Part shown: piece by piece, positions 1 through 58,139 of the stretch | Position numbering within the stretch: position 1 is the stretch's first letter | Layout: each line of letters opens with the position of its first letter | NCBI GenBank assembly: GCA_947650365.1 | Contig: OX393555.1 | Location: 77,567,995 to 77,631,994, forward strand | Direction of reading: 5' to 3' | DNA: 64,000 nt | From: Chamaelirium japonicum | Lineage: Eukaryota; Streptophyta; Magnoliopsida; Liliales; Melanthiaceae | Program-made: the position numbers and the translations under genes | The notes under the pieces: model-generated | Seen by the model: only the letters and a program-made list of their open reading frames with translations | Database searches by the model: none | What the model was told of the DNA's origin: nothing

Positions 1-1484
1 CGGGCCTTCGCCTCATCAATGGGGATAGGCTGGGAATCTTCTTCTTCCAAGCCACCAGTGGGGGTGGGAGGAAGATCCCCATCACCCCCCTGCCTTTGGT
101 CACCACCAGTGGGGGTGGGAGGAATTTCTTCCTCACCACCCCCGTTTCCACCATCTCCATCAGTGGGGGTGGGAGGAAGATCATCCTCGCCACCCCCATC
201 TTCGTCATTATCATCACTGCCATCCTCTTCTTCATCTTCATCATCATCTTCCTCCTCTCTATCTTCTTCTTTCTTCTTTCCTTCTTCCTGTTGAGGCTCG
301 ATGAGGGTTTTCCTCTTCTTCTTCGCTGGGCCTCGTTGTATCACCAGCTTCTCCTCCACAGTAGGCAATCGACGCCTCGCACTGTATGCCTTCTTCTCGG
401 CATGAATCTTCCTGACGATCTTGCCCGAATGAGGATCCTCCTCATAGTCGGAATACAAGACATCATTGTCTTCGTATCTGACCTGCGATCGGTGAAGGAG
501 ATTGGCTTTACCATACCTCACTGGGCAGTTTGAAAACTGCTTCCATGACTTGGTACCGCAGGTCAACTCGAGGAACAGGTTGTCAATGACTCCAACCCTC
601 TCAGAAGTCCAAGCAAAGACGCCTCCCTCGCAGTACATCTTCACTTCATCGTGTATTTCGTTCCGGGGGGTCTCGGGTACGGAGAGAGGAGTCCAGGTGC
701 CGGAAACAGATATAGGCCAATCAGTGTATAGCTTGTCCGAGGCGACTGTGTCAGTAAGCGGACGCAGCGCAGAGACGCCGGTCAAGTTATAGAACGGACT
801 GTCCTTCCTCCAAGCCCATCGATAATGATAAAAGAAATATCCAAGCTCGATCCGGGCAACTTCATCCTCTGGTATGCTGGAGTAGCATGCCTTCAGATCC
901 TCCTGGAAGTCTGACTCTACGCGGCAGAAAGCGTAGATAATCCTCCAGGCATTCCCAGTGACCTGTCCGGGGCAAAGGCCGGAAGTGTTCAATAACCTAG
1001 CAGCGAAGGGTGGCAACGGAAGGCGCAAACCACAATTGAGCTGGCCAATCATCACTATGGTTCCCATGACCTGCTCCTTGCTGGCATAGTGGGTGTAGAT
1101 CGTCTTCTTGTCAATACCGAAGGCAGACTGAATCCCCGGGAGTGAGGGTTGAACTTTTTCTTCTGTGAAGCAAGCGAGCAGTGTCTGCCACTTCTTACTC
1201 TTTGCATCTGTGAATTCGCCACCGGTATTATATACATACTCCGGTTCCTCTGTCAGAGACATGAGTGGGCCCAGAACGAATTTTGCCTTGGGGATATGCT
1301 CGGGCCTCGATGGCGCTGAAGCAAACCCTACTCCTTGATGTCTTTTTCCCAGCTGTCCAAGTTCAGCAAGCACCGCCTTGCCCTTGCCACGTCCTTTCGG
1401 AGGAGAGGGAACCTCAGCGATCTCCTTCCCCTTCCTCTTCAAGGAAACCGCACTCGACTTCTTCGAACTTCCGGAGGAGGCCAT
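1..1484 (-). CDS. Antisense gene of element E (PF04195-like), exon 1, open to the window edge
   Basis: An uninterrupted frame runs from an ATG at 1484 off the left edge, about 494 codons. The protein starts with a short Ser/Lys-rich segment and a KRHQGVGFAS-type motif. Next comes a globular region with GIQSAFGID, GQLNCGLRLPLPPF, NAWRIIYAFCRVESDFQ and FFYHYRW, which resembles PF04195, the putative gypsy-type transposase family. An acidic Glu/Asp run follows, then PPTPTGG-type repeats near the window edge. This is the only antisense-gene copy here without a visible stop or frameshift. The start matches the ATG of element A's copy. The exons seen in B (coiled coil) would lie beyond the window. 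Its biochemical function is unknown; the family name does not demonstrate transposase activity. Confidence 0.82.
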   Translation of the reverse strand, partial: MASSGSSKKSSAVSLKRKGKEIAEVPSPPKGRGKGKAVLAELGQLGKRHQGVGFASAPSRPEHIPKAKFVLGPLMSLTEEPEYVYNTGGEFTDAKSKKWQTLLACFTEEKVQPSLPGIQSAFGIDKKTIYTHYASKEQVMGTIVMIGQLNCGLRLPLPPFAARLLNTSGLCPGQVTGNAWRIIYAFCRVESDFQEDLKACYSSIPEDEVARIELGYFFYHYRWAWRKDSPFYNLTGVSALRPLTDTVASDKLYTDWPISVSGTWTPLSVPETPRNEIHDEVKMYCEGGVFAWTSERVGVIDNLFLELTCGTKSWKQFSNCPVRYGKANLLHRSQVRYEDNDVLYSDYEEDPHSGKIVRKIHAEKKAYSARRRLPTVEEKLVIQRGPAKKKRKTLIEPQQEEGKKKEEDREEEDDDEDEEEDGSDDNDEDGGGEDDLPPTPTDGDGGNGGGEEEIPPTPTGGDQRQGGDGDLPPTPTGGLEEEDSQPIPIDEAKA

Positions 1485-1574
1485 TTGACCGATCGAGCGA
1501 AAGCAAAGAATAAGAAATCGGGAGCAAAAGAGTCTGGACTTCGAAAAAATTTTGAAAGTGTGAGGCGAAAATGA

Positions 1575-1635
1575 CAGCCAGAGAAGCTTAAGTATCCTGA
1601 GGGAATTAGGCGCACAAATCGAGAAAACACGTGTC
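1575..1635 (-). promoter_or_regulatory. Candidate promoter of E's antisense gene (G-box, degenerate TATA)
   Basis: CACGTG lies at 1628-1633 and an AT-rich GATACTTAAG segment at 1589-1598, in the same order and near the same distance from the ATG as the G-box and TATA box of the A and B copies. The TATA here is poor. Promoter activity is inferred from conservation, not shown. Confidence 0.5.
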
Positions 1636-1904
1636 ATCACCATATCAAATCGCGTGTTTTTTCAGGTACACGTGGCATCTATCCGTAGCAAGCGCAAAAC
1701 CAGGCGAACAGTCGGAACCAGACGAAGCGTCAGACCACCGGTCCAGAAAAGCCACCGGTCCAAGCAAACCACCGGTCCGAGTGAACCGGACCGCCGATTC
1801 AGAGAAACCATTCAAGACAAACCAAAGACTCGAAAAGCAGGAAGAATCCAACTCCATCAATATATTACGTTCTCTGAAGGACAGGTTTAAAACTTCAAAC
1901 TTGA

Positions 1905-3412
1905 CCGGCTGATTTTAACCGATCGGTCAAACTTGACCGATCGGTCAAAATCAACCGATCGGTCGATTTTCTACTGGATCGGGCAAAAAACTTGGCTTTT
2001 TGCCCGATCACCCAATCCTTGACCGGCTGATTTTAACCGATCGGTCAAACTTTACCGATCGGTCAAAATCAACCGATCGGTCGATTTTCTACTGGATCGG
2101 GCAAAAAACTTGGCTTTTTGCTCGATCACCCAAACCTTAACCGGCTGATTTTAACCGATCGGTCAAACTTGACCGATCGGTCAAAATCAACCGATCGGTC
2201 GATTTTCTACTGGATCGGGCAAAAAACTTGGCTTTTTGCCCGATCACCCAATCCTTGACCGGCTGATTTTAATCGATCGGTCAAACTTTACCGATCGGTC
2301 AAAATCAACCGATCGGTCGATTTTCTACTGGATCGGGCAAAAAACTTGGCTTTTTGCTCGATCACCCAAACCTTAACCGGCTGATATTAACCGATCGGTC
2401 AAAATCAACCGATCGGTCGATTTTCTACTGGATCAGGAAAAAAAAAACTATGTTTTTTGCCCGATCACCCAAACCTTGACCGGCTGATTTTAACCGATCG
2501 ATCAAACTTGACCGATCGGTCAAAATCAACCGATCGGTCGATTTTTTACTGGATCAGGCAAAAAACTATATTTTTTGCCCGATCACCCAAACCTTGACCG
2601 GCTGATTTTAACCGATCGGTCAAACTTGACCGATCGGTCAAAATCAACCGATCGGTCGATTTTCTACTGGATCAGGCAAAAAACTATGTTTTTTGCCCGA
2701 TCACCCAAAACTTGACCGGCTGATTTTAACCGATCGGTCAAACTTGACCGATCGGTCAAAATCAACCGATCGGTCGATTTTCTACTGGATCAGGCAAAAA
2801 ACTATATTTTTTGCCCGATCACCCAAACCTTGACCGACTGATTTTAACCGATCAGTCAAACTTGACCGATCTGTCAAAATCAACCGATCGGTCGATTTTC
2901 TACTGGATCGGGCAAAAAACTTGGTTTTTTACCCGATCACCCAATCCTTGATCGGCTAATTTTAACCGATCGGTCAAACTTGACCGATCGGTCAAAATCA
3001 ACCGATCGGTCGATTTTTTACTGGATCAGGCAAAAAACATGGTTTTTTGCCCGATCACCCATACCTTGACCGGCTGATTTTAACCGATCGGTCAAACTTG
3101 ACCGATCGGTCAAAATCAACCGATCGGTCGATTTTCTACTGGATCGGGCAAAAAACCTGTGTTTTTTGCCGATCACCCAATTCATGACCGGCTGATTTTA
3201 ACCGATCGGTCAAACTTGGCCAATCGGTCAAAATCAACCGATCGGTCGATTTTCTACTAGATCGGTCAAAAAACTATGTTTTTTGACCGATCACTCCAAC
3301 CTTGACCGGTTGAATTCGACCGATCGGTCAAAATTGACCGATCAGTCAAATTTGACCGATTAGTCAAATTTGACCGATCAGTCAAATTTGACCGATCAGT
3401 CTATTTTTTCGC
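1905..3412. repeat. CGATCGGT minisatellite, 118-bp period (element E)
   Basis: About 12-13 tandem copies with a 118-bp period (equivalent points at 2017, 2135, 2253). Each unit holds three ACCGATCGGT-type palindromes and one 33-nt hairpin, for example 1977-2009: arm GATCGGGCAAAAA, 7-nt loop, arm TTTTTGCCCGATC. The unit nearest the LTR (3260-3292) has GGTC and GACC in place of GGGC and GCCC, so pairing is kept. The array lies between the antisense promoter and the polypurine tract. No coding potential. Confidence 0.95.
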
Positions 3413-3500
3413 TAACACTCGATAAGCTCCGTTGCATTTGTGACAGGGGAACATTAGCTTTGCACCAAGAATCCAAGCCAGCCAAGGTGGCCTCTTAGCT

Positions 3501-3517
3501 AACTTGGAGGGGGTAAC
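3501..3517 (+). other. Polypurine tract of element E
   Basis: AACTTGGAGGGGGTAAC directly precedes the TGTGGGTGC LTR start. The same sequence, reverse-complemented, lies next to the left LTRs of A (29231), B (33098) and C (54552), which fixes the 3' LTR boundaries. Confidence 0.85.
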
Positions 3518-4409
3518 TGTGGGTGCAAATTTTGGCAAGAAGTCTGCAAACAGCGGGATCCACCGGCCCTGCCTGGTGGGCCCCCGAGTACCACAGCGGG
3601 ACCCACCGGCTCTGCCTGGTGGGCCCCCGAGTACCACAGCGAGACCCAGCGGCTCTGCCTGGTGGACCCACGAGTACCACAGCGGGACCCACCGGCCCTG
3701 CCTGGTGGGCCCCCGAAGACAACATCGAGACCCACCGGCCCTGCCTGGTGGGCCCCCGAGTACCCCAGCGGGACCCACCGGCTCTGCCTGGTGGGCCCAC
3801 GAGTACCACAGTGGGACCCACCAGCCCTGCCTGGTGGGCCCCCGAAGACAACAGCGGGACCCACCGGCCCTGCCTGGTGGGCCCCCGAGTATTACAGCGG
3901 GACCCACCGGCCCTGCCTGGTGGGCCCCCTAAAGACGGCAGCGGAGCCCACCAGCTCTACCCGAAGGATCCCCAGATGCTGCAGCAGAAACCGCCATTTA
4001 CCACCAGAGAATCCTATAAATAGCAGAGCTTTTGAATGTAAAAGGGATCCCGAAAATTCTGATTTCCACTCTGAGATCTGATCTTCAGAACCAGAGCTCT
4101 GGAATTTCTCAGCATTTCCCTCTTCCATCTCTCTTTGATCTTCTTCTCTCCTTTGAAGAGATCAGAGTATTTCAAGTGATACTCGGCCTGTCGAGATCAC
4201 TTCTAAAAAGTGTTAGTGAATTCGGGTTGTTCCCTATAGCACGGAGACGTAGGCTTCGGCTGAACTCCGAGATCACATCTCTCGTGTCCAATTTTCTCTG
4301 CTTACATATTGAGAGTTCCAACTACCACCGACATATCAAACTACAATCTTCAACTTCAATTGACTGGTGAGGTGAGATCTTCGGGTCGGCACGAAGATTT
4401 TCCCCCTCA
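3518..4409 (+). repeat. 3' LTR of element E
   Basis: It starts TGTGGGTGCAAATTTTGG and ends CCCCCTCA, a degraded form of the CCCCCACA end of sister LTRs. Inside are about nine GC-rich subrepeats of roughly 43-51 bp (3550-3930), a TATAAATA box at 4015-4022 and, downstream, the block around GGAGACGTAGGCTTCGGC that is the best conserved part of every LTR of this family here. It is closest to the LTRs of element C. Confidence 0.88.
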
Positions 4410-9477: not shown

Positions 9478-10760
9478 TTAAATAGCGAGTCTCTGCCGGC
9501 AGAAGAGTGTGGCTGTGTAGTAGACGGGGCGTTCAATGCCTTCTCTTCTACTTACTAAGACCGCACTGATGGCTTGATTGGTGACGACAAGATAGAGCCA
9601 GAGATTTTCTTTCGACAGTGGAGCCGTCAGGATAGGAGCTCGTGTGAGATAGTATTTGATACTTTGGAAGGCTTGCTCGTAAATTGAGTTCCACCCTGAA
9701 GTGTCCGCTTTTCTTAGTTTATTAAAGAGAGGTTTGCAATTGTTAGAAGATTTAGAGATAAATCGGTTGAGGGCCGCCAATCTTCTTGTGAGGTATTGTA
9801 CCTCTTTTTGATTAGAGGGTGATGATATTTCGAGGATCACTCGAATTTGATCGGGATTTGCTTCAATGCCCCTTCTGGTCACCAGATGGCTTAGGAATTT
9901 ACCCGATTGAACTCCAAAGGCATACTTGGTTGGATTCAGTTTCATATGATATCTTCTGAGGACCTGGAATGTTTCAGCAAGGTCAGAGAGGTGATTCTCA
10001 CAACTGCGGCTTTTGGTGAGGAGATTGTCGACATAGACTTTGACATTACGACCAATTTATTCTTCGAACATCTTCGTGACTAGCCTCTGATAAGTAGCTC
10101 CAGCATTCTTGAGGTCGATGGGCATGACATTATAGCAGTAGAGGCCTCTATCTGTTACAAAGTATGTTTTCTCTCGATTATCAGGATGCAGACGAATTTG
10201 GTTGTATCCTGAGTAACCATCCATGAAGGACAGGAGCTCGTGGCCTGTAGTGGCATAGACGAGACTGTCTATTCTTGGCATGGGGAATGAATCTTTGGGA
10301 TAGGCCTTATTGAGGTTGGTGAAGTTGATGCATACTCTGATCTTCCCATTCTTCTTAGGGACTGCGACGATGTTGGAGATCCAATGCAAGTTAGGTACTC
10401 TACTTCACAAATGAAGCCTACCACGAGCAACTTATTGATCCCTTCTTGAATGGCAAAAAAAAGCTCTGGCTGGATCGTCTGAAGTTTTTGCTTAACAGGG
10501 TTTACTCCTTCTTTGACGGCGAGTTGAAGGCATGTGTTATCTAGATTAATCTCGGGCATGTCTTCGAAACCCCATGTGAAAATATCGGCTTTGGACTAGA
10601 GGAAGGATACCATGTCTTGTGCTTCTGCAATGCTGAGACTGGTAACAATGAATGTTTCTCGAAGGAGATCACCACCGCCAATGTTTACTCGAAAGATCTC
10701 TTCGATTGAAGGTGGAGCCTCCAACTCGACAAATAGAGGTTCTATTAGTAGGGGCTCCTT
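9478..10760 (-). pseudogene. Reverse transcriptase and connection RNase H of element F
   Basis: Homologous to the RTs of A and B: VPKKNGKIRVCINFTNLNKA, the first catalytic Asp in FMDGYSGYNQI, and LKNAGATYQR. The second catalytic motif reads YVDN at 10024-10035 instead of YVDD, a loss of a metal-binding Asp by one G-to-A change. There is a stop in SFLQSN near 10600, a frameshift near 10385 and a TAA after MFEE. The frame 9945-9478 carries the thumb/connection and the degenerate RNase H. Confidence 0.85.
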
Positions 10761-10769
10761 TAGTTGCTA
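10761..10769 (-). promoter_or_regulatory. Candidate UAG-CAA-CUA readthrough signal between protease and RT (element F)
   Basis: The protease frame ends in TAG at 10769-10767, followed in the same frame by CAA CTA AAG GAG and an open frame into RT. UAG-CAR-YYA is the readthrough consensus known from tobamovirus replicases. Elements A and B have the same codon at the same place. Readthrough is inferred. Confidence 0.65.
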
Positions 10770-11290
10770 GCTTGTAGAAAAGCCAGCTTCATCTCTCTGA
10801 CGCTTTGGTGGTGCGAGATTATCTCTGTGATCCGTCTTTGCTACGGTGGCTTCGTAAGATCGCCTAACCTGTTGATCACCCCGAATGCAGATAATGCTTT
10901 CTCCCATTGCAAATTTGAGGAGTTGGTGACATGATGAAGATACGACATTGATGTGGTGGAGGAAAGGTTGCCCCAGAATGATGTTGTAGTTGGATGTTCC
11001 TTCGACGACGGCGAACCTCATGAAGATTCGAGTTTCTGTGCTAAGGTCCAGAGTGAATCTTGACTCTCCCATGGTGATTCTTTGCTCGTCATTGAAGCTG
11101 GTGATGATGGTGGGGACAACGTCGAGGCTTGAATACTTATGTCCCAGACGCTTAAAGCAATCTGAGAACATAATATCGATTGAACTGCCGGTATCGATAA
11201 GGATTCAGTTAATAGTACTCCCGTCGATGATGAGCCGTAGGATAAGGAGATCCCGATACGGAGTATGCACTCCTTGAAGGTCTGAGTCAT
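10770..11290 (-). pseudogene. Aspartic protease of element F
   Basis: The retroviral-type active site DTGS is encoded at 11195-11184. Downstream are MGESRFTLDLSTET, VEGTSNYNIILGQPFLH and the LLKFAMGESIICI segment, in the arrangement seen in A and B. A TGA lies just upstream of the active site (ARG-to-stop type change). The frame equals that of RT, and equals that of gag once the Cassandra insertion is discounted. Confidence 0.78.
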
Positions 11291-11876: not shown

Positions 11877-13504
11877 CCTGTCGATTCTTGACAAACTCTT
11901 GGATATGGCCTTCACGCAACAAGTCTTCCAAATAATACTTTAGTCGGAAGCATCGAGTGGTTGGATGACCGTGGCTGCGATGAAATTCGCAGTATACAAA
12001 TCTGTTGGCAGTGAGTTTAGTATCCGGTTACAGAGGGTTCGGCCGTCGAAGGAATTCTTCATGGTGGATTTAATCCAGAATTTGCTCGATCAGAAGAGTC
12101 CAATCGGTGTATGTCATTTTTGGTCGCTTGAATAGTGGAGGCCCTGGTATTTCTACGTTGTGAGCTTTGGCCATTTGCTTTGGTGCTTCTCTTTTGACAG
12201 GTCGTCGTCTGGATTCATATCCCTTCCGAGCTATCTGGTCATCTTCGATTTCTATCTCCCATTGGATACGGTCGAATATCGCACCAAGGAAAGGTGGAGG
12301 ATTGCAAATGAAGTCATTATAGATGTGTACATTAAAGCGAAAAACATTTTGAAAGGCCAACATAATGGCTTTATCATCAAGATGTCGTCCAGAGAGAGCG
12401 GCATGCTCGTTGCTGTATCTTCGCGTGAAGTTATGAAAACTCTCATCGGCTCCCATCCTCAATCGATAAAGAGAATCAAGTTTCTTCTCCAGCTTGAGGT
12501 TAAGTTGATAATGTTGGATGAAGTAGTTTGCAAGAACCCTAAACTGGGTGACCGATCCAGCACGAAGGTTATGATACCAATCGAGAGAAGGCTCGTCGAG
12601 GCTGCCGACGAAGGTGCGGCAGAGTATATTATTCTTTTCCTCATGCAGTGTCAAAGCTTGTTTGAATCCTAGAATGTGAAGAGTGTAAACTCCCTTGAGG
12701 CACTTGAAGTAGGCTTCGATAAGGGGGTCCAGCTGAAGAATATCATTCTCTACGACCGAGTCTCCGACCTTGGTGTTGGTCCAGGGGAAAGATTGAGGGG
12801 TCTTGGTCTTCACCTTGAATTGCTGCAGGATAGCTCTGGTGATGAAGATCAATTTGAGAGTCTCAATGGAGAGAGAGGGATGGAGAGACCCAGTCTTTCG
12901 ACGCCGACTTTTTCATCCAATGCCTCACTCGTAGGTTGGGTTCCACCTGTGCCTGCCTAATACAGTTGCGATCTGAAGACGATTGTAAGGATTAGTCCTC
13001 GATACGATCCCAGACACTCTATTTCCGAGGACATACCGAGGGAGTTGGTTTGTGATGATTCTTTTCTTGGGTAGCGTGGCTGAAAGACCTCCGCTGTTCA
13101 GAGTGGATGGATTGGTGTAGTGGATCGACTTCGGTGTTGCTGTTGGAAGGAATGGGAAGAACGACTCCGGTGTTGGAGGCTGCTTTCTTGTGAGCGTCCC
13201 TCTCAGCAGTGAGAGAGGCGTTCTGTTTTACCAACTGTAGTAGTTGAAAGTTGAGCACCGAGATTTGATAAATTGGTGGAAGATCCTTCGCTGAAGAAGG
13301 AGTGGTTTGCCCAATCGACTGTCGAAGTGGCGGAGGGATCGGTCAGTCGACCGATCTCTCATTTTCGGAGTTAGCTACTATTTCTAGGCAACTAAGAGGT
13401 AACCAGAAATTAAGTTGTTGACTCATTAATCGAGTTTCCAAGCGAGGTTGATTCCATTGAGTGTTACTTCCCTCTAGATGATCATGATGCCTTATCTTCG
13501 CCAT
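11877..13504 (-). pseudogene. Gag of element F
   Basis: The start ATG at 13504 begins MAKIRHHDHLEGSNTQ, matching B's MAKTKHQDHPEGSNTR. The N-terminal part holds LLQLVKQNASLTAERDAHKK, a short coiled coil. The central domain (12852-12070) carries SLDEPSLDWYHNLRAGS and LYRLRMGADESFHNFTRRY, the Retrotrans_gag core of Tat elements. The C-terminal part has the HRSHGH-type knuckle and LEDLLREGHIQEFV. A TAG in the N-terminal linker and one frameshift between 13019 and 12852 disrupt it. Confidence 0.85.
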
Positions 13505-31434: not shown

Positions 31435-32222
31435 ATGGCATCTGCGAGCTGCACCAAGAATATTGTTCCTCCTAAGGTAAGGCCATCGAAGAAGGGGAAG
31501 GCCACCACTGAACCCTCATCGCCGAAAATAGCGGGGAAAGGCAAGGCCAAGGGTAGCCTCGGCGTCCTTGGCAAGAGGCATCTTGGTGTGGGATTTGCCT
31601 CCGTGCCCACCAAGTCGGAGCATATCTCCAAAGCCGAGTTCGTGTTAAGGCCACTGAGGCCTTTGTCTGAGTAACCCGTCTTTGAGTACGAGATTAGTAG
31701 AATGCCCACTGACGCGAAGAGGGAGAAGTGGGAGAGATTGTTGAGCTACTTCACTGAAGGTGTTCATCGCCCTGCGCTCGCAAGTGTATAGGCGGCCTTT
31801 GGGATCGACAAATGATCGGTTTTCATGGAGGTGGCCTGTAAGGATAAAATAATGGGCACGATCGTTATGATCGGGCAACTTAACTGTGGGCTGTGACTAC
31901 CTTTACTTCCTTTCGTGGCTAGGCTACTGTATATGTCTAGCCTCTGCCCCGGATAGCTGACGGGGAACGCATGGAGGATAATCTATGCCTTCCTGCAGGG
32001 CAAAGTTTGATCATCAGGACAAGTTGAGAGCTTGCTACTCCAGCGTCCCTAACAGCGAGCAGGCCAGGTTAAGATGGGATACTTCTTCTACCACTACCAA
32101 TGGGTGTCAAGGAAGGATAGTCCCTTCTTCAACCTGCACGGTGTCTCCACCCTTCTCCCTATCACCGACACGGTCCCTTCTAACAAGCTGTACACCGAAT
32201 GGCCGGTCTCCATCGCGGGTGC
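31435..32222 (+). pseudogene. Antisense gene of A, exon 1 part 1 (interrupted by B)
   Basis: ATG at 31435 starts MASASCTKNIVPPKVRPSKK. The conserved LGKRHLGVGFAS and the PF04195-like region follow, to YTEWPVSIAGA where element B is inserted. In-frame stops appear in place of Glu after PLSE, in the VQAAFGID region and near LNCGL. Coding resumes at 45759 after the duplicated GGTGC. Confidence 0.88.
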
Positions 32223-33097
32223 TGTGGGGGAAAAATCTTCGTGCCGATCCGAAGATTTCACTCCACCAGTCAATTGAAGTTGAATGGTACTTCTTTGATT
32301 GAAAGATGGCTCCTAAGGTCGATGCCTTGGTCACTTTGACGTAGCGCTTTCGATACAAACAAAGGAGATTGACACAAGAGTTGATCTCGGAGTTCAGCCG
32401 AAGCCTACGTCTCCGTGCTATAGGGAGCAACCCGAATTCACTAACACTTTACTTGGAACGACCTCGACTGGCTGAGTGTCACTGATCTTTTCGAACTTTT
32501 CAAAGATAAGAAGAAGATCGAGGAGAATTGAAGGATTGAAAGCCGGAATTCTAGAGCTCTGGTTTCTGGATTTTGACCTGGGATCCGGATCCTTTTTTAC
32601 TTGAAGGCTCTGCTATTTATAGGATTTCCTGGGGGGAAATCTGGGGTAAATGGCGGTTTCTACTATCGTATCCGGGGGATTCCCCAGACAGGGCTGGTGG
32701 GTCCCACTGTCGTCTCTGGGGATTCCACAGGCAGGGCTGGTGGGTCCCGCGGTAGTCTCTGTGGGTCTGCCAGGCAGAGCTGGGGGGTCTAGCGGTAGCC
32801 TCTGTGGGCCCACCAGGCAGGGCTGCTGGGTCCCACGGTAGGTCCCGCGGTAGCCTCTGTGGGCCCACCAGGCAGGGCTGGTGGGTCCCGCGGTAGTTTT
32901 CGTGGGTCCGCTAGGCATGGCTGGTGGGTCCCCTGGTAGTCTCTGTGGGCCCACCAGGCAGGGCTGGTGGGTCTCGCGGTAGTCTTCGTGGGTCCGCTAG
33001 GCAGGGCTGGTGGGTCCCGCGGCAGTCTCATGGGCCCACCAGGTAGGGCTAGTGGGTCCTGCTATCTATAGGCTTCTTGCCAAAATTTGCACCCATA
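32223..33097 (-). repeat. 3' LTR of element B
   Basis: TGTGGGGGAAAAATC to GCACCCATA, 875 bp. TATAAATA (minus) at 32621-32614. About eight subrepeats of 42-51 bp at 32690-33060. Confidence 0.93.
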
Positions 33098-33114
33098 ATT
33101 ACCCCCTCCAAGTT
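33098..33114 (-). other. Polypurine tract of element B
   Basis: The minus strand reads AACTTGGAGGGGGTAAT directly before the 3' LTR. Confidence 0.85.
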
Positions 33115-33189: not shown

Positions 33190-35010
33190 CTTGAGTGTCA
33201 GTACTGATGGACTAATCGGTCAATTCCGACCGATCGGTTGAATTTGACCGATCGGCTAACTTTAACCGATCGGTTAAATTCAACCGATCGGTTGAATTTG
33301 ACCAATCGGTCAAATTTCAACTGATTGGTTAAATTCAACCGGTGGAGGTCGACGTGATCGGTCAAAAAACATAGTTTTTTGACCGATCCAGTAGAAATTT
33401 AATCGATCGGTTGAACTTGACCGATCGATCAAAGTTGACCGATCGATTAAATTCAACCGGTGGAGGTCGAGGTGATTGGTCAAAAAAACATAGTTTTTTG
33501 ACCGATCCAGTAGAAACTTGACCGATCGGTTGAATTTGACCGATCGGTCAAAGTTGAATGATCGGTTAAATTCAACCAGTGGAGATCGAGGTGATCGGTC
33601 AAAAAACATTTTTGACCGATCCAGTAAAAAAGGATCCGATTGGTTGAATCTATCGGATCGGTCATGTTTGACCGATCGGTTAAATTCAACCGGTGGAGGT
33701 TGAGGCGATCGGGCAAAAACTTAAGTATTTTGCCCGATCTAGTAGAAAACAAACCGATCGGTTGAATCTATCTGATCGATTATGTTTGACCGATCGGTTA
33801 AATTCAACCGGTGGAGGTTGAGGAGATCGGGCAAAAACCTAAGTATTTTGCCTGATCTAGTAGAAAACAAACCGATCGGTTGAATCTATCCGTTCGGTTA
33901 TGTTTGACCGATCAGTTAAATTTAACCGGTGGAGGTTGAGACGATCGGGAAAAAACCTAAATATTTTGCCCGATCCAGTAGAAATCGAACTGATCGGTTG
34001 AATCTATTCGATCGATCATGTTTGATCGATCGGTTAAATTCAACCGGTGGAGGTTGAGGTGATCGGGCAAAAACTTAAGTTTTTTGCCCGATCTAGTAGA
34101 AAACGAACCGATCGGTTGAATCTATCCGATCGGTCATGTTTGATCGATCGGTTAAAATCAACCGATGGAGGTTGAGGCGATCGGGCAAAAACCTAAGTAT
34201 TTTGTCCGATCCAGTAGAAATCGAACCGATCGGTTGAATCTATTCGATCGGTCATGTTTAACCGATCGGTTAAATTCAACCGATGGAGGTTGAAGCTATC
34301 GGGTAAAAACCTAATTATTTTGCCCGATCTAGTAGAAAACGAACCGATCGGTTGAATCTATCCGATCGGTCATGTTTGACCGATCGGTTAAATTCAACCG
34401 GTGGAGGTTGAGGCGAATGGGCAAAAACCTAAGTATTTTGCCTGATCTAGTAGAAAACAAACCAATCGGTTGAATCTATCCGATCAGTCAAGTTTGACCG
34501 ATCGGTTAAATTCAACCGGTGGAGGTTGAGGTGATCAGGCAAAAACCTAAGTATTTTGCCCGTTCCAGTAGAAAACAAACCGATCGGTTGAATCTATCCG
34601 ATCGGTCATATTTGACCGATCGGTTAAATTCAACCGGTGGAGATTGAGGCGATTGGGCAAAAACCTAAGTATTTTGCCCGATCTAGTAAAAAACGGACCG
34701 ATCGGTTGAATCTATCCGATCAGTCATCTTTGACCGATCGGTTAAATTCAACTGGTGGAGGTTGAGGCGATCGGGTAAAAACCTAAGTATTTTGCCCGAT
34801 CTAGTAAAAAACGAACCGATTGGTCATGTTTGATCGATCGGTTAAATTCAACTGGTGGAGGTTGAGGCGATCGGGCAAAAACCTAAGTATTTTTCCCGAT
34901 CTAGTAGAAAACGAACCGATCGGTTGAATCTATCCGATCAGTCAAGTCTGACCGATCGATTGAATTCAACCGGTTGAGGTTGAGGTGATCGGGCAAAAGA
35001 GCCTATTTTC
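33190..35010. repeat. CGATCGGT minisatellite, about 118-bp period (element B)
   Basis: About 15 units. The first have the 33-nt hairpin with GGTC and GACC arms (33356-33388). From about 33700 on the arms are GGGC and GCCC (33707-33739). Thus both arms switch together inside one array. Confidence 0.94.
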
Positions 35011-35250
35011 AGCCTGATTCTTTGGAAAATTATCCGATCGTCTACCTGTCGAACAGGTAAAGTCTTCGAACGGCGATTGAAGTTGGAGCGGTAGCTTCTT
35101 CAGTTTTTGTTGTTTTGCTTGATCTGGTGGTTCATGTGGATCGATGATTCTTCTGAACCGGCGGTTCGCTTGGACCGGCTGTTCATCTGGTTCGACGTTT
35201 CGTCCGATTCCGACGTTTCGCCTGGAAGAGCGCTTCCTTCGGATTGACGC

Positions 35251-35338
35251 CACGTGTCCCTTTTGAAAATACAGCTTTTGACCTGGTGATGCCATATGTC
35301 TTTTCAGTTTTTGCGCCAGTTTCTTTGGGGTTTATAAG
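35251..35338 (+). promoter_or_regulatory. Promoter of B's antisense gene (G-box and TATA)
   Basis: CACGTG at 35251-35256 in GCCACGTGTCC, and TATAAG at 35333-35338 in a GGGGTTTATAAG context that parallels GGGGCTTATAAAT in element A. The ancestral start lies 110 bp further on. Confidence 0.72.
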
Positions 35339-35442
35339 CCATTTCTGGATTTTATTTTTGCCTCATGCTTCTAAAAATTTTTCGAGTCCAAAACTTTTTG
35401 CTCCCGAATTTCCTGCTCTCCGTGCTTTCCCAATCGATCGAA

Positions 35443-36678
35443 ATAGCATCTTCTAGCAGCATTAAGAGCAAGAATGTGGTCTCGTCCAAGAAGGCTCGGA
35501 AGGAGAAGGCTCCGGTGTCGCCCAAGCCTATTAGCCGGGGCAAGGGCAAAGGCGCTCTTGGTGTGCTCGGAAAGAGGCACATGGGAGTGGGGTTCGCTTC
35601 TGCACCGTCAAGGCCCGAGCACATTCCAAAGGCCAGCTTTGTTCTGGAACCTCTCATGCCGCTGTCGGAGGAGCCCATCTTTGAATATAACGTCAGTGGC
35701 AAGCTAACTGATGTGAAGAAGGCTAAGTGGCAGAAGTTGCTTGCTTACTTCACAGAGGGAAATCACCGACCAGCTTTGGCAGGAATTCAATCTGCTTTCG
35801 GGATCGACAAACGGACTGTCTTCACAGGGATCGCCAGCAAGAAGCTAGTGATGGGGACGGTGGTCACCATCGGCCAGCTAAACTGCGGGCTGCGGCTTCC
35901 TCTGCTGCCGTTCGTTGCCCGGCTGCTGAACACTTCGGGTCTTTGCCCGAGGCAGATATCGGGGAATGCATGGAGGATAATCTATGCATTCTGCCGGGTG
36001 GAGTCTGACTTCCAGGAGGAGCTCAGGGCATGCTACTCTAGCATCCCTGAAGGTGAAGTGGCCAGGATAGAGCTAGGGTACTTCATCTACCATTACAAGT
36101 GGGTTTCGAGGAAGGACAGCCCATTCTTCAACCTGACCGGCGTAGCCGCGCTCCGCCCAATCATCGACACCGTACCCTCCGACAAGCTGTACACCGACTG
36201 GCCGATTTTCGTCGCTGGGGCATGGACCCCCCTTTCTGTGCCTGAGACTCCTCGTTCTCAGGTACACAAGGAGGTTGACATGTACTCTCTAGGAGGGGTC
36301 TTCGCATGGCCATCGAAGAGGGTCGGGGCCCTCGATAACCTCTTCTTGGAGTTGACTTGCGGTACTCGATCGTGGAAGCAGTTTTCAAACTGCCCGATCA
36401 GGCACGGCAATGCCAACCTCCTCCACAGACTGCAGGCCAGGTACGAGGACAACGACGTCTTGTACTCCGATTATGAGGAGGATCCTCAATCGGGCAAGAT
36501 AGTTAAAACCGTCCGGGTTGAGAAGAAGGTGTTCGGGGCGAGATGCCTCTTGCCAACGGAGGAGAAGCTGGTGGTGACCCATAGAGGTCAGGTGAAGAAA
36601 AGAAGGGTCTTCAAAGAGGAGGAGAAGAAAGGGGAAGAGAAGAAAGAAGAAGAGGAGAAGAAAGGAGAAGGAGAAGGA

Positions 36679-36710
<32 letters not shown>

Positions 36711-37376
36711 AGAAGAAAAAGGAGAAGAAGAAGAAGAAGAGGAGGAGGATGAAGACGATGATGACGATGTTGAAGGAAGGTAGTGGTGATGATGATGGTG
36801 ATGATGGGGATGATGAGGAGGAAGGGGGAAGAGACGGTGGCGAGGAGGAAGTTCCGCCCACCCCCATCGATGAGGCTAAGGCCCGTCGGATGGAGGACGT
36901 CATGGATACGGTGGGCGACGGTAAGAAAGTGTCGCCCACCTATCACTTCGAAAAGCTGAAGCGCCCAACGCGCATCAGGATTCGGTATTCGGGGAGTGAT
37001 GTGGTTGCAAGCAACCCTACTCCCCTTAACCAAGTACCTCCGAGCATCGCTCGTTTGGAAGGCGCCTCGACGAGCGGGGGTTTGGACGTTGAGCAACCTC
37101 CACCTGTGCTCCGTCCCTCAGCTGCCCAGATGGCAGAGGAGACGGCCATGCTCATGGCCAGGCTCGAGCAGGCTAGTGGGCAGTGTGAGGAAGGGGAGAT
37201 CACTCCTCCATGCGACATTCCTATCTCTTTGCAAAAGAAGGGTGGGAGTCGCGTGGAGGCTGTGACACCCTAACCTCCTCCTACTCTATCCCCCGTGAAG
37301 GAAAGGTCGACCCCCGGGGGTAAAAGTTCCGATCGGGGAAAGGGTAAAGCCGAAGCATCCCGGGTCGACGCCGCAG
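35443..37376 (+). pseudogene. Antisense gene of B, exon 1
   Basis: The ancestral ATG is ATA here (35443), although an in-frame ATG exists at 35365. The PF04195-like region covers about residues 40-310: GIQSAFGIDKRT, GQLNCGLRLPLLPF, NAWRIIYAFCRVESDFQEE and WPSKRVGALDNLFLELTCGT. An acidic Glu/Asp run (36610-36850) follows. A frame shift within the GAA/GAG microsatellite near 36750-36783 moves the reading by one, then PPTPIDEAKARRMED continues. A TAA at 37271-37273 interrupts PP-rich sequence just before the donor site. E shows the intact form of the first half. Predicted spliced length about 860 residues. Confidence 0.88.
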
Positions 37377-38794: not shown

Positions 38795-39900
38795 TTAAGG
38801 ATAGAATATTTTGAGATATCTAGCATTCCAAGCTCGTGGTAGCCTATCTCCTACTGGTGAAATCAGTCGATATGATCCTTTGCCTCCTACCGATTCGATG
38901 ATGTAGGGACCTTCCCAGTTGGGAGCTAGTTTTTCGCTACTGTGGTCTTTTGTGTTGTAGAAGACTGCTCTAAGGACCAGGCTGTCAATTGGGAACTGTC
39001 TCTTATTGACCTTCTGATCGTAGGCTCGTTTGATCCTCTGTTGATACTTGGCAATACGAACGGTTGCTCAATCTCGTAATTCTTCAGAGAGATCAAGGTC
39101 ATTGACTCCAAGCTCTTTGTTAACCCCCTCTTCGATTGCTCTGGTCTTCAAAGTGTTTGAGATGGTCTCAGTTGGGAGGATTGCTTCTGACCCATATGTT
39201 AGGCGAAAGGGTGAGAACTCAGTTGATCTTCTCGGAGTTGTTCGATAACCCCACAAGACTTCTGGTAGGACTTGTTCCCACAATCCTTTCTTGTCATCGA
39301 GCTTCTTCTTGAGTAGACCCAGGATGGCTATGTTTGAGGCTTCAGCTTGGCCATTGCACCGAGGGTACCTTGGAGTTGAGTAGAAGAGTTTAATCCCGTT
39401 GTTTAGGCAAAACCCCCGGAACTTGTCGGAGTCGAATTAAGCTCCATTGTCAGCAATATAAACTTGTGGTGTGCCAAATCTTGAGAAGATATTATGTCTG
39501 ATGAACTTGATGACTTCATCGTCTGTCTCTCGGAAGAGTGGCACGACTTCAACCCATTTGGTGAAGTAATCTATAGCCAACAGCAGATACTTCTTCTTGC
39601 TTGGCATTGGTGGGAAAGGACCCAAGAAGTCCAACCCCTATTGGTGAAAGGGCCATGGACTTGTTAATTGATGGAGTTCATCTGCTGGGAGATGGATGGC
39701 TCGAGTGTGTCGCTGGCAAGACTCGCATCTTTGAACCACTTGGTGAGCATCTCTTGCCGTTGTCGGCCAATAGTAACCCTGAAGATTTGTCTTGGCCTTA
39801 AGAGATCTTCCTCCCGAATGATTCCCGCAGGCTCCGGAGTGGATGTCGATTAAGATTGTCTTTGCTTGTAAATGACCTATGCATTTGAGCAACATCCCAT
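38795..39900 (-). pseudogene. Integrase of element B
   Basis: Zinc-binding HHCC motif with IDIHSGACGNHSGG and CESCQRH (39895-39638), then the catalytic core with AIDYFTKWVEVV, ADNGA and NGQAEASN (Glu codon 39343-39341), giving a DDE triad. The C-terminal part ends KLAPNWEGPY and IIESVGGKGSYRLIS, then a stop at 38795. In-frame stops: TAG at 39638-39640 (shared with A), TAA in ADNGAQF, and TGA after ELRD. Not functional. Confidence 0.88.
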
Positions 39901-40700
39901 TGTGCGATTTGAAATATAGATCTTTCCCTTGGAGGCTATAGCATGGAAGCTTCCTTTGAAGTCTTCGGTCTTGAATTGGATCTTCTGGTGTTGTACCTTG
40001 TTTGAAGAAGTTGAAGATTGGCCATCTTCAATCTTCGAGTTCATGTATTGTGGCATGATCGGTGGCTGGCTGTTCTCCACCCCTGGATCTTTCTGTAGTG
40101 GCGATGACTTGTTGCTCAAGAATAATCTTGGGCGATGCTTGATAGTCGATTTATATTCGCCTCTCCCCGAGTGAGTCTCCAAGAATCGAGGCAGCATTAG
40201 CCAAGGCATCTGCCTCCCAATTTTCTGCTCTCGGGACTTGGATGAACTCGGTGGTAGCAAAACGCTATTGATGATGTCGCACTAGAGTCAAGTAATGTTG
40301 TATTCTTTCTTCTCGCGCCGTGTACTCCCCGTTGATCTATCTTATGATTAGCTGGGAGTCGCTGTAAATGGTGAGTTGATCTACCCCCAGGGATTCAGCC
40401 ATTTCAAGCCCAGAGATAAGTGCTTCGTACTTGGTCTCATTGTTGGTAGCATTGAATCCGAGGAGAATAGCCTTTTGAAGATAATCAAGTTCGGGGGATA
40501 CCAAGACTATCCCAATTCCCGAACCAATCATGCTAGATGCTCCATCAGTATAGAGTTTCCACCGAGTTGGCCAGGTAGCAGGAGCCTCAAGACTAGGGTT
40601 GGTCTCGGGAATCAGATTAAAGGGAGGTTCATCTCCGTCTTCAAGACGCATATCGACGTCTTCCTCCTAAATTATAGGGTCATCCATAGGGAAATCGGCT
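39901..40700 (-). pseudogene. Archaeal-type RNase H and tether of element B
   Basis: RWKLYTDGASSMIGSGIG, NNETKYEALISGLEMAE and IYSDSQLIIR give the Asp-Glu-Asp positions of an RNase H fold, distinct from the RT-linked RNase H. A CAG-to-TAG change ends the frame at 40337. The rest of the domain and the ENWEADALANAAS linker continue beyond. This extra RNase H places the element in the Tat lineage. Confidence 0.85.
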
Positions 40701-42207
40701 AGGAAGTCAGCGACTGCCTGTCCTTTGATTGAAGTGCGAGGTTCGAATTGAATCCCAAGAGCACTCATTTCGATCACCCATTTGGTCATTCGACCTGCTC
40801 GACCTGCCTTGTCGAGGATGTCTTTGAGTGGGTGTTACGAGATCACAGTGATCGGGTGGGATATAAAATAGGGTTGAAGACGACGTGATGCGGTGAGCAA
40901 GGCTAGTATGACCTTCTCAATCTTTGAGTAGCGAGTTTCGGCCGAGAAAAGTATATGACTGATGTAGTAGACCGGATGTTCGATGCCTTCTCTTCTGCTG
41001 ACCAAGACCGCACTGATTGCTTGATCGGTGACGGCAAGATAGAGCCAGAGATCTTCTTTTGGGAGCGGAGCTGTTAAAATGGGAGCACGTATGAGATAAT
41101 TCTTGACGTCTTGAAAAGGTTGTTCGCAAGTTGGACTCCACCCAGAGGTATCAGCCTTTCGCAACTTGTTGAAGAGCGGTTTGCACTTGTCAGAAGATTT
41201 TGAGATAAATCGATTAAGAGCAGCTAATCTTCCAGTGAGGCGTTGCACTTCCTTCCGATTGGTAGGCGATGGCATATCGAGGATAGCTCGAATTTGATCA
41301 GGGTTGGCTTCAATTCCTCTCCTGATCACAAGGTGTCCCAGGAACTTGCCCGATTGAACACTGAAGGCACATTTAGCCGGGTTGAGCTTCATGCGGTACT
41401 TTCAGAGGATTTGAAATATTTCTGCCAGATCAGAGAGGTGGCTCTCACGATTGGAACTTTGGTGAGGAGATCATCCACATAAACTTTGACGTTGCGTCCG
41501 ATTTGATCTTCGAACATCTTTGTGACTAGCCTTTGATAGGTGGATCCAGCATTCTTGAAGCCGAAAGGCATTACGTTGTAGCAGTAAAGACCTCGGTCAA
41601 TCACAAAGCAAGTCTTCTCTCGATCGTCCGGATGTAGCGGAATTTGATTGTACCCCGAGTATCCGTCCATGAAAGATAGGAGTTCGTGGCCAGCAGTGGC
41701 ATCGACGAGTCTATTTATCCTTGGCATGGGGAACGGATCTTTGGGACAATCTTTGTTGAGGTTGGTAAAGTCGATGCACACTCTGACCTTCCCATTCTTC
41801 TTTGGGACAGCAACTATATTGGAGATCCAAGTAGGATACTCTACTTCATGAATGAAGCCTACTGCAAGTAGCTTACTGATCTCTTCTTGAACTACAACTT
41901 GTCGTTCTGGTCGGATTGTGCGTGGTTTTTGCTTGACGGGCTTCATACCCTCTTTGATTGCTAGGCGGTGACACGCGTCATCTGGGTTGATCCCAGGCAT
42001 ATCTTTGAAACACCAGGCGAAGACGTCTATGTTGGATTGAAGGAAGGATACCATGTCTCATGCTTCTGCATCGCTGAGACCGATACCAATGAAGGTTTCT
42101 TGAGGGAGATCTTCGCTACCGATATTGATTGGAATAATCTCTTCGATTGAAGGTAAGGCCTCCCACTCGATCGGCGGGGGTTCGGACAGTGGGATCTCCT
42201 TTGGTTG
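40701..42207 (-). pseudogene. Reverse transcriptase and degenerate RNase H of element B
   Basis: Begins DMVSFLQSNIDVFAW. Catalytic Asp in FMDGYSGYNQIPLHP and YVDD at 41481-41470 are intact. A 1-nt deletion near 41455 after YVDDLLTK shifts the frame. KLNPAKCAFSVQSGKFLGHL and the RT-linked RNase H (YLAVTDQAISAVLVSRREG, HPVYYIS) follow in the new frame, with CAA-to-TAA at 40835. A TGA precedes DMVSF. Confidence 0.9.
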
Positions 42208-42210
42208 CTA
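42202..42210 (-). promoter_or_regulatory. Candidate UAG-CAA-CCA readthrough signal (element B)
   Basis: In-frame TAG at 42210-42208 followed by CAA CCA AAG GAG, between protease and RT, in the same frame as both. Fits UAG-CAR-YYA. Same position as in F and A. Confidence 0.68.
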
Positions 42211-42760
42211 TCTTGAAGAAGGACCTGCTTCATCTCTAGGTCACTTTGGGGCAGCGAGGTTTATCCTGCGATCTGTTTTGGCAGTGGCTGCTTCACAGGA
42301 TCGCCCAGTTTGTTGATCTCCCTGAATGCAGACAATGCCTTCTCCTGTTGCAAATTTGAGGAGTTGATGGTAGGAGGAGGAGATGGCATTGATCTGATGG
42401 AGGAATGGTCGACCAAGGATGATGTTGTAGTTGGATGTCCCTTCGACGATAGCAAACCTTACCGAGACTTGAGTCTCTCGGCTGAGGTCGAGGGTGAATC
42501 TTGATTCCCCCATTGTTATGCTCTGCTCCTCGTTGAAGCCCGTGATCACTGTTGGGATGACTTCGAGACTTGAATACTTATGTCCCAGACGCTTGAAACA
42601 GTCTGAGAATATGATGTCGATGGAGCTTCCGGTGTCGATGAGGATGCGGTTGACAGTGCTTCCATCGATGATGAGCTTCAGGACCAGAGGATCCTAGTAT
42701 GGAGTATGGACTCCTTGGAGGTCTGAGTTACTAAAGATGATGGAGGGCCAAGTTAAGCCC
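42211..42760 (-). pseudogene. Aspartic protease of element B
   Basis: IIDGSTVNRILIDTGSSIDI with the active-site DTG at 42636-42628, then MGESRFTLDLSRET, VEGTSNYNIILGRPFLHQ and LLKFATGEG. Stops: TAG upstream of the active site (about 42695) and TGA at 42241. In frame with gag and RT. Confidence 0.85.
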
Positions 42761-44676
42761 TTGATAGGTTTCTCGATCCAGGTGTCTTCTTTATTCGCTG
42801 CAGAGCGAATATTGAAGATACGCCATATCTACCGATCAACTTCTTTCCCCGCCAATGTTTGATTGTGCAATGACCCATGAATGCCAAAGACGTTAGCATG
42901 CACTGTGATAAGTGACTGATTGGTAGAGATTTGGTGGATCCAGCAAGCTTCTTTCCCCTTTGCGGAAGGTCGGCGTTGATCTTGTCCGCCTTTGACAAAG
43001 TCTTGGAGATGGCCTTCTCGCAGTAAATCCTCGAGATGATATCTCAGTCGATAGCATCGGTCAGTAGAATGGCCGTGGCTGCGGTGAAAATCGTAGTAGA
43101 CTGTTTTATAAGCCGTGACCTTGGTATCAGGCTGTAGAGGGTTCGGCCTTCGGAGGAACTCTTCATTTTGAATTCGATCGAGGATCTGCTCGATTGGTAG
43201 AGTCCAATCAGTGAATGTAGTCTTCTTCGGAGGGGATCTACGTCCGTCGTTCTTTGACCGCTTGGGTGCAGGGGGAATCACCGCCTCTGCATTATGAGCT
43301 TTGGCTGCATACTTTGGGGCTTCTCTTTCGGTGGGTCGTCGCTTCGTTTCTCGCCCCTTTCAGGTGACTTGATCATCTTCAACTTCGATTTTCCTTTGGA
43401 TTCGATCGAACATTGAACCGAAGGAAGGGGGAGGATTGCGAATGAAGTCATTATAGATGTGCAAATCGAAACAGAGAGCATTTTGGAAGGCTAGCATGAT
43501 AGCCTCGTCATCCAGATATCGTCCCGAGAGAACGGCTCGCTCGTTGCAGAATCTTCGTGTGAAGCTGCGGAGACTCTCGTCGGCACCCATCCTCAGCCTG
43601 TAGAGGGAGTCTAGCTTCTTCTCCGGTTTCAAGTTGAGCTGATAATGTTGCACAAAATGGTTAGCCAAGACTCCGAATTGGGTGATGGATCCAGCTCGGA
43701 GGTTATGGTACCAATCGAGGGATGGCTCATCGAGGCTTCCGACGAAGGTGTGGCAGAGCACATTGTTCTCTTCCTCATACGACGTCAAAGCTTGCTTGAA
43801 TGCCAGTATGTGGAGAGTCGGATCTCCCTTGAGGCAATTGAATTTGGGAAGAGTTAGAATTCTCCATCCCCTTAGAAATATTGATTGGAACAAACTCCAA
43901 TGGAGAGGTCCAGCAGAGGAGTATCTCTCCCTACGACCATGCCCTTGACCTGGATACAGATCAAGAGGCAAGATCGCGAGGTCTTCTTCGGGCCTTTGAG
44001 TAGCGGTCGGATGGAGCCGGTGACGAAGATCCGTTCCTGCTTCATGCTGGAGTGGAAAGAACGGAGAAGCTCTACTCTTTGAGGGCGCCCCTTTCATCTG
44101 GTGCCTTCTTTGTAAGTTGGGCTTCGACTGTGTCGGCCTGACACAGTTGCGACCCGAGGATAACTGAGAGGACTCATCATCTATACGATCCCAGACACTC
44201 TGCTTCTATGGAGCAGCAGAGGGGATTGGATCACGACGGATCCTCTCAAGGGCAGCGGTGCCCATTGTCCTCCGTGGTTCGGAGTGGATCAATTATCGTG
44301 GCAGATCCGCTCTTTCTCCGAGTGAAGGGATGGGGAGAGCAATTCCAGCCTCGGAGTCTGCCTTCTTGAGAGCATCCCTTTCAGCTGTGAGGGTGGTATT
44401 TTGCTTAGCCAATTGTTGCAGCTGAAAGTCGACCGCCGAGATTTGATAGGTAGATGGCAGGTCTTCAGCTGAAACAGGGGTAGTCTGCCCTATCGACTGT
44501 CGAGGAGGTGGTGCGATCGATCGATCGATCGATCGTCCACTCCCTGAACGAACCCCCATTTTGGGGACAATAAGGGGCTGCCCGAAGTTGATCCGTTGAC
44601 TCATCGAACGAGTCTCCGGACGAGGTTGACGCGTGTTACTTCCCTCTGGATGATCCTGATGTTTCGTCTTCGCCAT
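42761..44676 (-). pseudogene. Gag of element B
   Basis: ATG at 44676: MAKTKHQDHPEGSNTRQPRP, then QLQQLAKQNTTLTAERDALK coiled coil. The Retrotrans_gag core at 44097-43360 has SLDEPSLDWYHNLRAGS, LYRLRMGADESLRSFTRRF and AIMLAFQNALCFDLHIYND. A FHRSHGHSTDRC knuckle with the first Cys lost (Tyr) and LEDLLREGHLQDFV follow. The frame is constant but broken by stops at 44293, about 44216, 43360 and 42829. Confidence 0.9.
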
Positions 44677-44841: not shown

Positions 44842-44844
44842 AAC

Positions 44845-45753
44845 TGTGGGGGAAAAATCTTCATGCCGATCCGAAGATTTCACTCCACCAGTCAATTGAA
44901 GTTGAATGGTACTTCTTTGATTGAAAGATGGCTCCGAAGGTCGATGCCTTAGTCACTTTGAGTTAGCTCTTTCGATACAAACAGAGGAGATTGACACAAG
45001 AGTTGATCTCGGAGTTCAGCCGAAGCCTACGTCTCCGTGCTATAGGGAGCAACCCGAATTCACTAATATTTTACTTGAAGCGACCTCGACAGGCCGAGTA
45101 TCACTGATCTCTTTGAACTCTTTAAAGACAAGAAGAAGATTGAGGAGAATTGAAGGATTGAAAGCCGGAATTCCAGAGCTCTGGTTTTTGGATTTTGAAC
45201 TGGGATCTGGATCCTTTTTTACTTGAAGGCTCTGCTATTTATAGGATTTCCTGGGAGGAAATCTGGGTCAAATGGCGGTTTTCGTTGTTGTATCCGGGGG
45301 ATTCCCTAGGCAAGGCTGGTGGGTCCCGCTGTTGTCTCTGGGGATTCCATAGGCAGGGTTGGTGGGTCCCGCGATAGTCTCTGTGGGTCCGCGAGGCAGA
45401 GCTGGTGGGTCCAACGGTAGCCTCTGTGGGCCCACCAGGCAGGGCTGGTGGGTCCCGCGGTAGCCTCTATGGGCCCACCAGGCAGGGCTGGTGGGTCCCG
45501 CGGTAGTCTCTGTGGGCCCACCAGGTAGGGCTGGTGGGTCCCGCGGTAGTCTTCGTGGGTCCGCCAAGCATGGCTGGTGGGTCTCGCGGTAGTCTTTGTG
45601 GGCCCACCAGGCAGGGCTGGTGGGTCGCCCGCGGTAGTCTTTGTGGGTCCGCCAGGCAGGGCTGGTGGGTCCCGCGGTAGTCTCTGTCGGCCCACCAGGC
45701 AGGGCTAGTGGGTCCTGCTATCTGTAGGCTTCTTGCCAAAATTTGCACCCACA
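44845..45753 (-). repeat. 5' LTR of element B
   Basis: TGTGGGGGAAAAATC to GCACCCACA, 909 bp. It is 34 bp longer than its partner, mainly in the subrepeat block 45300-45720. Same TATA and conserved block as the 3' LTR. Confidence 0.93.
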
Positions 45754-51747: not shown

Positions 51748-51750
51748 CTA
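51742..51750 (-). promoter_or_regulatory. Candidate UAG-CAA-CCA readthrough signal (element A)
   Basis: In-frame TAG at 51750-51748, then CAA CCA AAG AAT, in the common frame of protease and RT. Same place and consensus as in F and B. Confidence 0.68.
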
Positions 51751-57470: not shown

Positions 57471-57476
57471 GAATAG

Positions 57477-58090: not shown

Positions 58091-58139
58091 AGCTGGCTCA
58101 ACTTGGATTTGCTTGAAGGTTTGAAACTGAATGTTGCGC

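Follow-up and report, generated by a model that had tools for sequence, protein, structure and literature searches.

To our knowledge, the way in which the Gag:Pol ratio is set in single-frame plant Ty3/gypsy elements is largely unsettled. The question is raised directly by the window described here (the whole stretch of DNA analysed, 64 kb in length, G000:C7:77567995-77631994), in which three decayed copies of LTR retrotransposons, named F, A and B, lie on the minus strand, and a single in-frame TAG separates protease (PRO) from reverse transcriptase (RT) in each of them. Is this codon a product of decay, an inherited stop devoid of meaning, or a stop through which Pol was once made? The original prediction chose the last answer, with Gag-Pro as the main product and Pol made by readthrough. 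On re-reading, the coordinates, strand and codons that it gave for the junctions all proved correct: by codon reading, the signal on the minus strand is UAG-CAA-CUA in F (10761-10769, stop at 10769-10767) and UAG-CAA-CCA in both A (51742-51750) and B (42202-42210), and all three fit UAG-CAR-YYA, as had been proposed. The flanking codons differ between F, A and B just as reported, with STS, SLS and SSR before the TAG and KEP, KNP and KEI after it. Within the 64-kb window, tblastn with the two sides searched apart and these copies as queries found no PRO-RT junctions beyond those of F, A and B.

Over 649 aligned codons, A carries 8 stops, B 6 and F 4, and the TAG is the only one common to all three, while the remaining 15 are private to single copies, in line with what had been claimed. 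For 8, 6 and 4 stops placed at random on 649 codons, our own arithmetic gives about 0.0005 expected triple coincidences, and about 0.02 when the stops are confined to roughly 100 easily mutated codons.

By their domain layout, the three copies look like members of the Retand lineage (Ty3/gypsy, Tat). In B, the stop-to-stop pieces on the minus strand run in the order gag, PRO, TAG, RT, RH, aRH-like and integrase zinc finger. These are a Gag piece (43360-44205, Retrotrans_gag E 3.4e-7), an aspartic protease piece (42241-42693, PF13650 E 9.6e-7, over the cut-off), and, downstream of the stop, an RT piece (41389-42057, RVT_1 E 8.8e-20), an RNase H piece (40835-41401, PF17919 E 3.2e-20), a second, aRH-like RNase H between RH and integrase (40337-40666, RVT_3 E 2.4e-5 over its cut-off and RNase_H 1.5e-5 just below) and an integrase zinc-binding piece (39638-40027, PF17921 E 3.5e-8). 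The element is bounded by a 5' LTR (44844-45751) paired with a 3' LTR (32222-33095), both on the minus strand and 89.1% identical (K2P 0.079). In A, the RT piece downstream of the stop is at 50827-51639, minus strand (RVT_1 E 3.5e-29). In F, also on the minus strand, a Gag piece at 12070-12912 falls just under the cut-off (Retrotrans_gag E 7e-5), and a protease piece at 10770-11204, open up to the stop, matches PF13975 (E 2.5e-4) and PF13650 (1.8e-3), both under the curated cut-offs.

The order found in B is that of Retand, gag-PRO-RT-RH-aRH-INT, and is identical in Ogre; the available part of PMC6317226 assigns both lineages an aRH domain located between RH and INT. Between pol and the 3' LTR of B lies an antisense ORF (35338-36783, plus strand) with a sub-threshold match to Transposase_28 (PF04195 E 2.5e-5, 24.8 bits against a cut-off of 26.2). 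According to the portions of the two sources at hand, the share with antisense Transposase_28 ORFs is 97% among Retand clusters of recent activity (PMC11963269) and 23% among Retand elements (PMC6317226). The aRH-like domain before the integrase, together with the antisense Transposase_28 ORFs, therefore points to a Retand-like family and not to Ogre, so that Ogre, with which the original prediction compared the copies, appears to be a cousin.

A number of other features are found around these elements. Beside the ORF at 35338-36783 (plus strand), a second long ORF with a sub-threshold Transposase_28 match is present at 3-1661 (minus strand). Tandem arrays with a 118-bp unit are common to the elements (1779-3479, 33492-35071 and 54711-55010, the first in opposite orientation), arrays with a 43-bp unit lie within LTR-like stretches (3506-3978, 32653-33114 and 45232-45681), and a 107-bp array occupies window positions 57370-58192. 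An LTR-like direct repeat, 53879-54551 and 59391-60063, is 98% identical over copies 5.5 kb apart, a closer pair than the LTRs of B, and possibly marks the ends of a short non-autonomous element next to A.

The junction was then followed through the same 1.52-Gb genome, a plant's to judge from its elements, by DNA searches with the 850 bases round each junction of A, B and F as queries. The survey drew on the best 40 places per search, from 4382, 4544 and 3454 unconfirmed first-look candidates in lists that overlap, and the copies are referred to as the A, B and F sets after the search that found them. All 40 listed places were scored for A and for B, each including the window copy; from the F search, 20 of the 39 listed places other than F were scored, plus F itself. 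TAG stands at 79 of the 80 junctions from the A and B searches and at all 20 scored F-search places other than F, which makes 100 of 101 among these best-listed places of one genome. The single sense codon, of the kind that would count against a functional stop if the copy were otherwise intact, is a TTG in L080. Neither are the bases at +4 to +9 random, another observation that had been held to speak against the prediction, as TAG-CAR-YYA is complete in 94 of the 101. The other misses are L016 (CAACAA), L071, L074 and L075 (TAACCA), L085 (TAACTA) and L094 (TAGCCA), so that the seven comprise five changes of C to T at +4, one of C to A at +8 and one of TAG to TTG. As near-duplicate places occur in the survey (L107 equals L109 over 117 bases), the 101 junctions do not represent as many independent events.

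No other codon column comes near this frequency. In the A set (30 copies), stops at any one of the other columns are limited to 5 copies at most, a few columns upstream of the stop, between the frameshifting deletions of reference A, being invalid and not used; in the B set (30 copies), the corresponding maximum up to codon +245 is 8, columns past codon +250 being set aside for a deletion in reference B. Intactness was scored within the ranges -190 to +380 (A) and -190 to +245 (B). In the former, none of 30 copies is free of other stops, the fewest being 2; in the latter, 3 of 30 have no other stop or frameshift relative to the reference, and these keep the TAG. Such counts bear on the idea of parallel decay, by which CAG would have become TAG in each old copy through methylation-linked C-to-T change. 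Decay of this kind is common in plant repeats, and several private stops in A, B and F look like its products. With TAG in 100 of 101 copies, no other valid column near that number and CAG in 0 of 101, the idea is rejected on copy counts, and the chance left to it is negligible.

The sequences on both sides of the stop have been maintained. Pairwise dS among A, B and F is 0.6-1.4 overall and 0.84-1.39 in RT, while dN/dS for the pairs AB, AF and BF is 0.07, 0.19 and 0.09 in PRO and 0.08, 0.17 and 0.10 in RT, values that decay after insertion tends to push up. PRO and RT flanking the stop have thus diverged under strong purifying selection. As RT has been selected behind the stop in three lineages, RT was made in lineages already carrying it. 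This is what readthrough predicts, and in that sense the comparison supports Gag-Pro as the probable main product with Pol made by readthrough. The stop, the hexamer after it, the common frame, the presence of all these in the scored copies and the selection on both sides are direct observations.

The constancy of the nine-base signal itself is a less simple matter. Among 1884 9-mers in 32 copies it is the least diverse, tied with two neighbours; it contains no CG or CHG cytosine and for that reason mutates slowly. As a measure of conservation, the raw rank of 1 in 1884 was overstated, and it was weakened by a control in which 9-mers were matched for base context and codon position. After this control, diversity in the A set is 0.198 against 1.06 expected (P 0.001-0.002, rank 8 of 1691), and in the B set 0.287 against 0.68, which is not significant (P 0.12-0.14, rank 136 of 1296); the one variable site of the signal in the B set is the allowed choice between CCA and CTA. 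Since about one change would be expected in 30 copies, the lack of any at the TAG is only slightly surprising. Constancy inside a subfamily is mostly descent, and the sameness between copies is in part due to shared descent and low mutability. The strength of the case is the agreement between subfamilies under selection, combined with the domain border and the hexamer. It is here that a dead inherited stop has to be weighed, one that arose without meaning in a single source element copied in trans. Most copies are indeed defective, and shared ancestry explains much of their sameness; the low RT dN/dS (0.08-0.17) at such dS (0.84-1.39) would nevertheless not be seen in a dead Pol, and the stop lies at the border between two domains, followed by a known readthrough hexamer. 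We regard this origin as very unlikely.

If Pol was made, it could have been reached by ways other than reading the stop. One is splicing, in which some transcripts would lose an intron containing the stop and Pol would be obtained without readthrough; Ogre, of the same Tat clade, has its GAG-PROT and RT ORFs split by an intron in pea and Medicago, according to the part of PMC6317226 available. Another is termination followed by re-initiation at a conserved AUG, codon +52, just ahead of the RT core. In 54 of 60 copies this codon (10613-10611 in F) is the earliest in-frame AUG past the stop, and in 38 of 60 no AUG in another frame comes before it either. The linker bears on both. Pairwise dN/dS is 0.26-0.35 in the linker before the stop, 0.30 (AB), 1.02 (AF) and 0.36 (BF) over codons +1 to +35, and on average 0.29 between the A and B sets over codons +3 to +52, against 0.07 over RT codons +53 to +240. 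From the stop to codon +52, no frameshifting indel occurs in 60 copies; of the 3120 codons that these copies have at +1 to +52, 23 are other stops. Two further measures from the 60-copy analysis, the dN/dS between the A and B sets upstream of the stop and the A-set indel count before it, were discarded, as reference A has frameshifting deletions there.

Against splicing, the PRO and RT sides share one frame with no second shared stop, and the linker retains some coding signal; a separation of the Ogre type, as far as can be read from the sequence, does not seem to apply to an element with one frame and one shared stop. Against re-initiation, the codons ahead of the AUG stay in frame under some coding selection, and the readthrough hexamer would be a coincidence. 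The linker data thus weakly favour reading through over splicing out or restarting. Splicing is judged improbable, and re-initiation to the same degree; both rank slightly ahead of the dead stop.

Readthrough of the UAG may be assisted by structure in the RNA. A putative hairpin of 12 bp with a one-base bulge starts 8 nt past the UAG, on the minus strand at 10714-10758 in F (with one U-U mismatch), 51695-51739 in A and 42155-42199 in B, where the inner 6 bp are good and the outer part is weak. Folding was scanned in 23 segments of 130 nt stepped along 1.5 kb, each scored in 12-14 of the 30 copies per set. The lowest mean z belongs to the segment immediately 3' of the stop, both in the A set (-3.03, next -1.77) and in the B set (-1.58, next -1.44); in F alone the same segment ranks 5 of 23. 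In an alignment of 81 rows (80 distinct), 85.8% of hairpin cells are paired, against 34-55% when the shape is slid, and at least 10 of the 12 pairs form in 63 of the 81 rows. Of 1630 placements of the shape along the gene, the one 8 nt after the UAG ranks second in the A set (tied first) and first in the B set, although the shape was picked by eye in the very rows scored.

The pattern of substitutions is less favourable to it. Over the three sets, covariation in the 12-bp hairpin was not above that of shuffles (155 of 500 as high), with 2 pairs changed on both sides against 4.2 in shuffles and 85.8% of cells paired against 87.1%. Some pairs are poor: 22-58 is present in 4 of 30 rows of the A set and in none of 30 in the B set, 20-60 in 9 of 30 B rows and 29-50 in 11 of 21 F rows. 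RNAalifold favours a different fold over the hairpin. A two-hairpin model for the A set (401 of 500 shuffles as high) was dropped, its second hairpin being poorly kept in B. For an inner hairpin with a long-range stem in the B set, 27 of 500 shuffles were as high in covariation, again no clear excess over the shuffles, and the long-range stem is mostly absent from A. In the B-type segment itself (window 42081-42210, and L042-L070), bases 8 nt past the stop can pair about 90 nt on, GGAGAUC with GAUCUCC, with 95% of cells paired over six outer pairs, and this stem would form at the expense of the outer portion of the local hairpin. We regard the hairpin 8 nt downstream of the UAG as plausible but unproven.

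Relatives outside the family were sought among proteins. The closest RT relative is 60% identical (best 120 of 7406 protein matches), and 33 of these best 120 have their start 57 or more residues ahead of the RT piece, so that a single protein spans the place of the linker. Relatives in other plants, at about 51-60% RT identity, can thus cross the linker without a stop. As these database proteins were selected for being open, they show only that other families can do without a stop; the lineage as a whole, it follows, can dispense with the device. In the protein search with the PRO piece, 4 distant matches were obtained, and no match was found in the viral contigs searched. Genome contigs yielded L001 and L002, which were left out of the comparison. 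The former, a 4661-bp contig titled Streptomyces clavifer (BMWJ01000029.1), encodes an RT 46% identical to that of this plant family and is perhaps eukaryotic contamination.

Taken together, the sequence comparisons make it probable that the ancestral active elements produced Gag-Pro as the main product and Gag-Pro-Pol by UAG readthrough. On this view, F, A and B are old members of a Retand-like family of Ty3/gypsy LTR retrotransposons, in whose active ancestors Gag-Pro would have terminated at the UAG, while a fraction of ribosomes would have decoded this codon as an amino acid and gone on, without a change of frame, into RT-RH-integrase. The CAR-YYA just 3' of the UAG would aid readthrough, and the hairpin 8 nt after the stop possibly would too. 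We infer readthrough itself, its rate and the role of the hairpin. A leaky stop probably keeps the copying enzyme scarce relative to the structural protein. A further proposal, that a two-part signal of a tobamovirus-type UAG-CAR-YYA and a hairpin 8 nt downstream evolved within Retand, after the protease, and is spread over thousands of first-look candidate places, is a real possibility to which we give somewhat less than even weight. If true, viral readthrough would have a counterpart in a host genome, within a group in which relatives cross the linker without a stop and Ogre relies on splicing. For this family, a segment of about 130 nt is now enough to put the Gag:Pol question to the test.

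Translation would thus set the ratio of Gag-Pro to Gag-Pro-Pol in a manner similar to gammaretroviruses, yet with the stop after the protease. In MuLV, the stop precedes the protease, whereas here it follows, and a spacer of 8 nt follows the MuLV stop, as it would with the putative hairpin here. Both systems have UAG with pol in frame 0, and in MuLV a stimulatory structure lies 3' of the stop (PMC5009743, in the text available); that structure is a pseudoknot, whereas the present family has at most a putative hairpin.

The closest likeness in the signal is to the tobamovirus replicase (TMV, type I). CAR YYA is essential for TMV readthrough, and tyrosine is inserted at the TMV UAG (Lao et al. 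2009, PMC2754532). The UAG and next six bases of the present family fit the consensus stated in the available portion of that paper, and in both cases the plant translation machinery is the reader. Unlike the tobamovirus, this is a retrotransposon with a PRO-RT site, mostly CCA at YYA, and a possible downstream hairpin. In the same text, the verified plant readthrough cases up to 2009 are all viral; an element fixed in a plant genome would, if the reading is true, widen that list.

Among retrotransposons, rice RIRE2 is already known as a readthrough candidate: it is cited as such in PMC2754532 and listed with Retand in a table of PMC6317226, at least in the parts of these papers available. It resembles the present family in lineage and in the proposal of readthrough, a comparison drawn from the citing papers' descriptions. 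Relative to RIRE2 as so described, what is added here is presence of the stop in 100 of 101 scored copies of one family. A fungal study (PMC3441728) states, in its accessible text, that a stop between gag and pol is rarely observed, and its Copia element is without CARYYA. In the literature searched, a partial collection, no description of UAG-CAR-YYA between PRO and RT of Retand was found.

With Ogre, the split point between PRO and RT is identical. The Ogre GAG-PROT and RT ORFs are on average 274 bp apart with an intron in pea and Medicago, as given in the part of PMC6317226 available, so that a spliced region of about 274 bp in Ogre stands against one in-frame stop here, within a linker that has coding signal. 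If the reading given here is true, three answers to the same question exist within one clade: to read straight through, to splice, and to leak through a stop.
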